Assembly: GCA_001464615.1 (NCBI GenBank)
Contig: LNFI01000038.1
Location: 1-64,000 of the forward strand
Source of the DNA: Sphingomonadales bacterium Ga0077557
Lineage (GTDB): Bacteria > Pseudomonadota > Alphaproteobacteria > Sphingomonadales > Sphingomonadaceae
Length of the DNA stretch: 64,000 bases
Reading direction: 5' to 3'
In this document: in pieces, positions 57,932 through 63,216 of the stretch
Layout of the letters: the number at the start of each line of letters is the position of its first letter
How positions within the stretch are numbered: the first letter of the stretch is position 1
Notes under the pieces: model-generated
The model's input: only the letters and a program-made list of their open reading frames with translations
Databases searched by the model: none
What the model was told of the DNA's origin: nothing
Translations under genes and position numbers: made by a program

Positions 57932-59815
<1,884 letters not shown>

Positions 59816-59884
59816 TCAATTCGCTCCAAGCTATCGAAGGAGCTACGAACGATTGCGCCGATCAACAGGATCGGTCTCGCGCGC

Positions 59885-59980
59885 CACTTCCTCCGCCGGT
59901 GTCAGCCGGATCAGGTTCAGCGGGTCGGAGGCTGCCGCCTCCCTCTCAAGCGCAGCCAACAGCGCTTCCCCGGGGATATG
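59885..59980 (-). ncRNA. TPP riboswitch (THI element) upstream of thiC
   Basis: Minus strand: GGGGAAGCGC...GCGCTTGAGAGGG...GACCCGCTGAACCTGATCCGGCTGACACCGGCGGAGGAA. Confidence 0.92.
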
Positions 59981-60090
59981 GCGAGGATAGTGCGAAGAAA
60001 TGAGATAGTCCAGCACGTGATCGCGCTCGACAAAATCGTAACAGGGTAACAAGATAGCAATTGTCGAAAAGCATTTTCCATGGAGGTGAT

Positions 60091-60999
60091 ATGATCGCTC
60101 GCCCGCAGTGGTCTGCCGCCCTGTCCGTGATCTCAATGGCGATGGTCATGGCGTCGCCAGTCTCGGGCCGGTCTGCGCCTGCGCAAACCGCCCTCCCTGG
60201 CCCGGCCAGCACCACCAGCACCGACGGCAATGACATCGTGGTCGAGGGTTCACGCAAAACCCTGCGAAACATGCTGAAACAGACGCTGGATAACGGCCCA
60301 CAAAACCAACTAGCCCGGTATGCGGACGGGTTTTGCCCGCGCGTTGATGGCTTTCCCGAAGAATGGTCGCCGATTATCGAAACGGTCGTGCGCAACAATG
60401 CGGCCGAGGCTGGGGTGCAGGTGAAGAATGCCGGATGCCGGCCCAATGCGCTGATCCTCTTCACAGACCATCCGCAGCAATTGATGGTTGATCTCGACAA
60501 GGCTAGCCCCTCGCTTTTGGCTCATTTGTCGGCGGGGCAGCGGCAATTGCTCTTGGGCAAGAAGCGCGCCGTCTATTCCTCTCGGGTCGTCCAGCAGGTC
60601 GATCGCGAGGGCAATGCCATTAGCGACGGCATCTCCCGCAGTTTCGGAGCGACCCGGATATCGGCCAATGTCCGATCGGATATCCTGCTCTCGGTCGTCG
60701 TCATCGATATCAACCAATCGCCCGGTAAATCGCTGCGCCAGCTCGCGGATTTTGCGACAATGCACCTGCTGCTCAACCTCACGGTCAAAACACTGGACGA
60801 AGCGAACCCTTCTTCGGTCCTGTCGTTATTCATGCCACATGAAGGGATGGCAGTGCCGCAACGATTGTCTTTGATCGATCGCGCGACGCTCCACGGCCTC
60901 TATGTTCCCCGCAGCAACAACTTTACCGCACAAGAACAGCGTGAACGGATCATCGGCACCATCAAGAAGGGCTATCGCGCAATCGCGGCGGCGGAGTGA
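60091..60999 (+). CDS. secreted hypothetical protein, tandem copy 1
   Basis: GGAGGTG SD then ATG; signal peptide; GNDIVVEGSRKTLRNMLKQTLDN...; paralogous to 61327..62241. Confidence 0.8.
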   Translation: MIARPQWSAALSVISMAMVMASPVSGRSAPAQTALPGPASTTSTDGNDIVVEGSRKTLRNMLKQTLDNGPQNQLARYADGFCPRVDGFPEEWSPIIETVVRNNAAEAGVQVKNAGCRPNALILFTDHPQQLMVDLDKASPSLLAHLSAGQRQLLLGKKRAVYSSRVVQQVDREGNAISDGISRSFGATRISANVRSDILLSVVVIDINQSPGKSLRQLADFATMHLLLNLTVKTLDEANPSSVLSLFMPHEGMAVPQRLSLIDRATLHGLYVPRSNNFTAQEQRERIIGTIKKGYRAIAAAE

Positions 61000-61098
61000 A
61001 GCAGCGGCGCTGCGCTGCTAAATACCGCAAAATAGCGCTTGGATTTCCGTTGACCTAAATTCTATTCCAGGCGTGCCGCGAGCCCCCGGAACCAAAGA

Positions 61099-61187
61099 TC
61101 AGAAAGTATAGCCGAGCCCGATGGCGCAATAGACTTGATTGGGATTGCCAGCGACGCTCGTCAACGGCGATCGCACGAAATCTCCCC
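61099..61187 (-). pseudogene. 3'-terminal fragment of a mipA-like gene left at the tandem duplication junction
   Basis: Encodes ...RSPLTSVAGNPNQVYCAIGLGYTF*, nearly identical to the C-terminus of the mipA gene at 62341. Confidence 0.85.
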
Positions 61188-61215
61188 GCAGCCAACAGCA
61201 CTTCCCGGGGGATAT
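61186..61215 (-). repeat. truncated 5' fragment of the thiC TPP riboswitch at the duplication junction
   Basis: cgcagccaacagcacttcccgggggatat vs riboswitch cgcagccaacagcgcttccccggggatat at about 59951. Confidence 0.75.
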
Positions 61216-61326
61216 TGGGCGGATAGTGCGAAGAAATGAGATGGTCCAGCACGCGACCGCGCTCGACAAAATCCCACCAAGGCAACAAGATAGCAATTGT
61301 CGAAAAGCATTTTCCATCGAGGTGAT

Positions 61327-62241
61327 ATGATCGCTCGCCCGCATTGGTCTGCCGCCCTGTCCGTGATCTCGATGGCGATGGTCATGGCGTCGCCACTCTC
61401 GGGCCGGTCTGCGCCTGCGCAAACCGCCCTCCCCGGCCCGGCCAGCACCACCAGCACCGACGGCAATGACATCGTGGTCGAGGGTTCACGCAAAACGCTG
61501 CGGCACACCCTGAAACAGACGCTGGATACCGGGCCACAAAGCCAGCTGGCCCGATATGAAGACGGGTTTTGCCCGCGCGTTGATGGCTTTCCCGAAGAAT
61601 GGTCGCCGATTATCGAGGAGATTGTGCGCAACAATGCGGCAGAGGCTGGGGTGCTCGTGAAGCGACCGGGCTGCCGGCCCAATGCGTTGATCGTCTTCAC
61701 CGACCAGCCACAGCAGTTGATGGCCATCTTTGAAAAGGCCAACCCCTCCCTGTCGGCCCATTTGTCGCCAGCCCAGCGGCAATTGCTGCTGGGCAAAAAG
61801 CGCGCCGCCTATTCCGCTCGGGTCGTCCAGCAACTTGATCGCGAAGGCAATGGCTATGATTTTTTCTCAAACACCATTCGCAATGCCAAAGCGACCCGAC
61901 TATCGACCAATTTCCGATCGGATATCCGGCTGTCGGTTGTCGTGATCGATATCAACCAAACGCCCGGTAAAACACTGCGTCAGCTCGCCGATTTTGCGAC
62001 GATGCACTTGCTGCTCAACCTCTCGGTTAAAACCCTGGATGAGACGAACCCTTCCTCGGTCCTGTCGCTGTTCATGCCGCATGACGGGGTGGCGGTGCCG
62101 GCACAACTCTCTTTAGTCGATCGGGCGACGATCGAGGGTCTTTATGTTCCCGCCAGAAACAATTTTACCGCAGATAACCAGCGCGAACGGATCCTCGGGC
62201 ACATCACCAAGGAATTTCGCGCAATCGCGGCGGGGAAGTGA
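61327..62241 (+). CDS. secreted hypothetical protein, tandem copy 2
   Basis: Highly similar to 60091..60999 along full length; 2 codons longer. Confidence 0.8.
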   Translation: MIARPHWSAALSVISMAMVMASPLSGRSAPAQTALPGPASTTSTDGNDIVVEGSRKTLRHTLKQTLDTGPQSQLARYEDGFCPRVDGFPEEWSPIIEEIVRNNAAEAGVLVKRPGCRPNALIVFTDQPQQLMAIFEKANPSLSAHLSPAQRQLLLGKKRAAYSARVVQQLDREGNGYDFFSNTIRNAKATRLSTNFRSDIRLSVVVIDINQTPGKTLRQLADFATMHLLLNLSVKTLDETNPSSVLSLFMPHDGVAVPAQLSLVDRATIEGLYVPARNNFTADNQRERILGHITKEFRAIAAGK

Positions 62242-62340
62242 AGCGACCGCGCGGCGCTATTGAATACCGCAGAATAGCGCACGAATTTCCGTTGGCCTAA
62301 ATTCTATTCCAGTCGTGTCCGGCGCGCCCGGAACCGCCAA

Positions 62341-63216
62341 TCAAAAAGTATAGCCGAGCCCGATGGCGCTATAGACTTGATTGGGATTGCCAGCGACGCT
62401 CGTCAACGGCGATCGCGCGAAATCGCCCTGCAACCGGCTGTAGGAGACCAGCGTAAAGAGCTGAAGCCCGCGTTGCAGATCGCCGGATAGCGCATAATTG
62501 AACAGCAGATTGGCGGTGTAATTTTTCACGCCGCCGCGCGGGCGGGCAAACAGCGGCAAGCCACTGCGCGCAGCGCCCGCAGCGTCGACCGCGAAATAGG
62601 TTTCGGCATAGCCATCGCCGACGATCGTGGCCGATCCGCCAATGCCGACATAAGCGCGACGGCTGATCGGCGTGCCATAATCAATCACCGGCATCAGCAC
62701 ATAGCTGTCATGAACACCGGTCACGTCGCGGACATAGTTGACCCGCACGGATAGCCGGTCATAGGGGCTAGTGATCACCCCGGTCTTGCCGATGCCGACA
62801 TAACCGCCCACTTCGAGTGCCGCCCGGCGCCGACCCAGCGCGAGCACCCGGGTATCGATGATCCGTGCCGTACGATTGAGATTGAGGCTGACCACAGGCC
62901 CGAGCATCAAATCCCAGCTGGCCAGCGATTTGTCGCGGATCAGATCGGCAGAAAGCTGCAATCCGCGTGAGGAAAAGTTGATGCCATCGACCCGACCGCG
63001 CACAGCGGCAACCGGGATCACCACATAATCATTGGAGCCATCATAGCTGGGGACCAGCCCGACACCGCCGCCAATGGTGATGGTATCCCGATCCAGCGCT
63101 GCCGGATCCACGTCGATTCGTGGGGGTGTCGGGCGATCAGCCTTCTGTGCAAAGGCCGGAACGGCGATCACAGTGAGCGATGCGGCGGTGGCAAGCAAAC
63201 GCAGACAACACAACAC
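62341..63216 (-). CDS. MipA/OmpV family outer membrane protein
   Basis: DTITIGGGVGLVPSYDGSNDYVVIPVAAVRGRVDG...; C-terminal aromatic GLGYTF. Confidence 0.9.
   Translation of the reverse strand: MLCCLRLLATAASLTVIAVPAFAQKADRPTPPRIDVDPAALDRDTITIGGGVGLVPSYDGSNDYVVIPVAAVRGRVDGINFSSRGLQLSADLIRDKSLASWDLMLGPVVSLNLNRTARIIDTRVLALGRRRAALEVGGYVGIGKTGVITSPYDRLSVRVNYVRDVTGVHDSYVLMPVIDYGTPISRRAYVGIGGSATIVGDGYAETYFAVDAAGAARSGLPLFARPRGGVKNYTANLLFNYALSGDLQRGLQLFTLVSYSRLQGDFARSPLTSVAGNPNQVYSAIGLGYTF

Follow-up and report, generated by a model that had tools for sequence, protein, structure and literature searches.

The window analysed here is the whole 64,000-nucleotide stretch of contig LNFI01000038.1 from Sphingomonadales bacterium Ga0077557, which carries thiC and mipA on its minus strand and, between them, two related genes on the plus strand. 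The thiC gene (57932-59815) encodes the radical SAM protein ThiC (Pfam PF01964, E 1.1e-185, and PF13667) and lies downstream of an intact TPP riboswitch aptamer (59871-59982, minus strand), which matches the Rfam model RF00059 over positions 1-105 of 105 with 54.7 bits against a gathering threshold of 54.3. Intact mipA occupies 62341-63216 (minus strand; PF06629, E 1.9e-30). The sequence that starts inside the aptamer and ends inside mipA consists of two units read head to tail along the plus strand, of which unit 1 spans 59951-61186 and unit 2 spans 61187-62428. Unit 1 contains, in this order, part of the aptamer, a leader, an open reading frame (ORF A) and 88 bp of the 3′ end of mipA. ORF A (60091-60999, plus strand), with a GGAGG located 4 bases before its ATG, encodes a secreted protein of 302 aa that belongs to an unnamed sphingomonad family. 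Its counterpart in unit 2, ORF B (61327-62241, plus strand), is an open frame that aligns with ORF A as a 304-aa paralogue with 80% protein identity (79-80% for the pair overall). Both proteins begin with a signal-peptide-like sequence.

Anatomy of the tandem duplication

A repeat finder returned two direct repeats, 59951-60250 with 61187-61486 at an offset of 1236 (94% identical) and 60637-60936 with 61879-62178 at an offset of 1242 (82% identical). Full alignment of the units assigns the shift between these offsets to a single 6-bp gap within the ORF, which bears out both the offsets and the two extra codons in the second copy that an earlier note had read from the sequence. Overall, 185 of the 1236 aligned positions differ (15% of sites), and blastn gives 85% identity across 1243 columns. 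No further copy of the unit was found: the next best match is just 28 bp long in the window and 23 bp long elsewhere in the 3.57-Mb, 41-contig draft assembly. This excludes chance similarity and sets the copy number in the assembly at exactly two.

The left endpoint of the duplication lies at 59951, within the intact aptamer, and the right endpoint at about 62428, within mipA. Where the units meet (61186/61187), the 3′ end of mipA is fused to the 5′ part of the thiC aptamer. The endpoints, the coordinates and the composition of this joint agree with the earlier note, the mipA part amounting to 88 bp. This mipA relic (61099-61186, minus strand), made of C-terminal codons and the stop codon, is identical to mipA at 84 of 88 positions. 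The adjoining aptamer relic (61187-61218, minus strand) holds the first 32 bases of the TPP aptamer, without the UGAGA core and all that lies 3′ of it; this 5′ part gave no RF00059 match even at E ≤ 5, and the whole aptamer is not retained. The head-to-tail duplication is genuine and of a known kind, an ordinary tandem duplication with a well-preserved joint: the copies keep a constant offset (1236, then 1242 past the 6-bp indel), and one novel joint derives from two outer parental sites that are both intact. The thiC riboswitch stays whole because unit 1 retains the original aptamer; likewise, the original mipA lies at the end of unit 2 and is preserved whole. No function was recognised in the 120 bp of mipA tail and aptamer head between the copies, which we regard as debris, and a promoter scan of the duplicated leader found no sigma-70-like site.

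The bases at the joint say less about how the duplication arose. GCAGCC at 61188-61193 compares with GCAACC at 62430-62435, the third site concerned being 59952-59957. The GCAnCC microhomology proposed earlier is thus present, in that GCA is perfect and five of the six bases match, but the perfect stretch is just 3 bp. The further proposal that the junction directly shows the mechanism does not follow, since such a match fits a duplication at short homology but also chance or the integration of incoming DNA, and is too short to prove any mechanism.

The intact aptamer (window 59945-59982) reads UUGAGA where its relatives read CUGAGA. The base pair at this variant seems to be kept, because the partner base differs too (A for the consensus G).

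The site in the nearest relatives

The two genomes nearest by mipA, G237 and G190 (94% and 77% protein identity, respectively), share with the genome studied here the gene order of thiC, mipA and a DUF2141 gene, and neither has a gene between thiC and mipA. A single-copy arrangement of thiC, one gene and mipA, which the earlier note expected to exist, was sought among the relatives and not found. Since the site is empty in both G237 and G190, an insertion is needed in addition to the duplication, and the simplest history is one in which one gene entered the thiC-mipA interval after the split from G237 and was then duplicated. The thiC leaders of G237 (L045) and G190 (L046) have inserts with small palindromes in the aptamer region, and Rfam reports no TPP riboswitch in either leader at the gathering threshold.

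A four-way alignment, read by eye, bears on the origin of the mipA relic. Judged against G237 and G190, three derived bases are common to the relic and to mipA of this genome. The four sites at which the relic departs from mipA carry changes private to the relic or nearly so, this genome's mipA being unchanged since the copying. The relic therefore looks like a local copy of the lineage's own mipA that is decaying freely. Examined for foreign origin, the repeated segment gives two readings along its length: the relic groups with the local mipA on the three derived bases, over 88 bp only, and the divergence of the ORF bodies is great enough for a foreign origin.

Uneven divergence between the copies

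The leader and signal-peptide region differ by just 5-10% between the copies, and the best-fitting middle segment (60381-61102) contains 20.9% differences against 6.6% outside it, a contrast equalled in none of 300 permutations. Within the ORFs, dS is 0.067 in codons 1-58 and 0.443 in the rest (P = 1e-4). For comparison, this genome is separated from G237 by a dS of 0.19 for mipA, 0.21 for the DUF2141 gene and 0.37 for thiC (first 233 codons). The duplication had been called recent, a term that holds at best for the repeat ends: the dS of 0.44 in the ORF bodies exceeds the species values of 0.19-0.37 at these three genes, overall identity is about 85%, and the divergence is uneven. If the body dS set the age of the mipA relic, 19.5 changes would be expected in it; only 4 are seen (P = 3e-5), and the N-terminal dS predicts 2.9. 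The age interval of the relic is wide (two-lineage, 2.5-23%, from 88 bp only) and, taken alone, is compatible with the 22% seen in the 3′ spacer. The intact mipA is also under constraint, which makes relic-to-mipA identity overstate youth and accounts for some of the right-end contrast. The dS contrast within the ORF is independent of both the mipA constraint and the relic interval.

One clock cannot account for this pattern, and recombination is involved on either reading: one copy was probably partly overwritten, or the pair is older and underwent conversion at its ends. The replacement of one ORF body by a divergent allele would need fewer events, because end conversion of an older pair also requires clean losses in the relatives. 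In the ORF bodies dN/dS is 0.36, with a nonsynonymous deficit at P = 7e-8. The two ORFs, each of them intact, are thus under purifying selection and probably both functional.

The secreted gene family

No match to the family of ORF A and ORF B was found in Pfam, NCBIfam, PHROG or PADLOC, and a sequence search of the PDB with the window protein returned nothing significant. An AlphaFold model of the window protein (pLDDT 82, pTM 0.80) has no fold match in the PDB at E ≤ 0.001; the best, snapalysin, was rejected as a fold relative, being too weak at E 0.08 with a query TM of about 0.3. Distant relatives (about 24-35% identity) occur in 114 of 295 genomes of the genus, this genome included, and a profile search recovers family members in 144 of 401 sampled genomes, spread over 45 of 96 genera of the bacterial family. 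The invariant features include the cysteines C81 and C115 together with G173, D262 and Y270. Soon after the signal peptide, nearly all members, among them the window pair (60091-60999 and 61327-62241; alignment A1), have an IVVxG-like motif, which we take to resemble the TonB-box-like motif of TonB-dependent receptors.

Members often stand in tandem arrays of two or three, with partners usually 35-52% identical, and are commonly sited next to a conserved VWA_CoxE-like gene. G237 and G190 each have one member at this usual site, which is empty in the present genome (G000 contig C8, L104 8229-8465), where the VWA and NamZ genes are 235 bp apart. Relocation of the usual gene into the window was nevertheless rejected, the window ORFs sharing 28-30% identity with the usual-site members in G237 and G190, which are 68% identical to each other. 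An origin in phage, plasmid or defence elements was likewise discarded, with no PHROG or PADLOC match and just two distant plasmid matches at 28% identity. The usual-site gene (L098 5407-6279, L099 5461-6327) has a dS of 1.66 between G190 and G237, twice the 0.79-0.83 of its neighbours, in keeping with either fast evolution or allele exchange.

In a further genome, G169 (L108 8275-8652 and 9647-10024), thiC is followed directly by a family member and then by a second, 378-bp thiC 3′ end. The two ends are 85% identical, with dS 0.96 and dN 0.043, values which imply that both were working genes in different lineages. Thus, the insertion in G169 probably arrived with foreign DNA through recombination in thiC.

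Discussion

Based on the above data, we propose that a gene of the secreted family was inserted, in this lineage, between the thiC TPP riboswitch and the stop codon of mipA, that the segment from inside the aptamer to inside mipA was duplicated head to tail at a very short homology, and that recombination afterwards turned the copies into mosaics. We consider this sequence of events probable. The duplication would have produced two complete genes with similar leaders, since the shared unit carries a leader, an ORF and the mipA 3′ end, and would have spared both mipA and thiC with its riboswitch, its sole cost being the dead fusion of mipA tail and aptamer head between the copies. Because the unit contains a whole leader and ORF, each copy is predicted to be expressed independently. 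Later recombination would account for ORF bodies far more divergent than the leader, the signal-peptide region and the mipA relic; most likely, either a divergent allele replaced one body or an older pair was homogenised at its ends. The most likely effect of the duplication was extra dosage at first and now two diverging variants, as the family has elsewhere.

The G169 case makes additive import a serious rival for the window. Here, homology-facilitated illegitimate recombination would have added a foreign segment and the two ORFs would have been divergent from the outset, such that a single step accounts for the high divergence of the bodies; the probable precedent lies in the same gene family. 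The mechanism is known from competent species and occurs at low frequency in E. coli (PMC3240628). However, the mipA relic has derived bases in common with the resident mipA and looks like a freely decaying local copy, and the donor would have to be near-identical in the leader and signal-peptide region, where the copies differ by so little. On balance we hold such an import to be unlikely, although it is the strongest competitor to insertion followed by duplication.

Considerably less plausible is an old duplication that predated the split from G237; its two ends would later have undergone gene conversion, and G237 and G190 would each have lost both copies cleanly. The body dS, higher than the species dS, would be explained in this way, but precise losses restoring the ancestral short spacer are needed in G237 (and in G190 too, depending on the age), and conversion must also have run up to the mipA boundary. 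Lastly, an assembly artefact or chance similarity, for which the draft state of the genome in 41 contigs is the only ground and no support was found, is excluded in practice, as an assembler could not derive one copy from the other when 185 of 1236 sites differ and the genome otherwise offers no better match than one of 23 bp.

The locus is a natural tandem duplication that can be cleanly dissected, as the joint and the two parental sites all remain legible. It illustrates that a duplication endpoint within a riboswitch can do no harm, since the gene keeps its intact aptamer, and its mosaic divergence cautions against dating duplications by their repeat ends. The gene family itself offers the most interesting lead, being present in about one third of the sampled genomes of the bacterial family and having no Pfam, NCBIfam or PDB relative. 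As a tentative and rather doubtful generalisation, this could be an undescribed, fast-diversifying secreted family of sphingomonads that repeatedly enters new sites by the ends of core genes (that of mipA here and of thiC in G169), brings along or repeats part of the neighbouring core gene, and then undergoes tandem amplification with allele exchange between copies.

Three known systems invite comparison. Short tandem duplications formed at short homologies in bacteria, as in duplication-amplification, likewise have head-to-tail copies, a novel join point, a whole gene within the unit and outer sites without loss, whereas the copies in the window are 15% diverged, mosaic and exactly two in number, which marks an old, retained duplication and not a segregating one. 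Homology-facilitated illegitimate recombination would likewise repeat the 3′ end of a core gene beside an accessory gene, and fits thiC in G169, but the repeated mipA end in the window resembles a local copy and not that of a donor. Finally, the tandem arrays of two or three family genes in other sphingomonads (for example G281, G120, G117 and G189) are alike in arrangement; theirs lie beside the VWA_CoxE-like gene and are mostly 35-52% identical, whereas the window pair lies beside thiC and is 79-80% identical.
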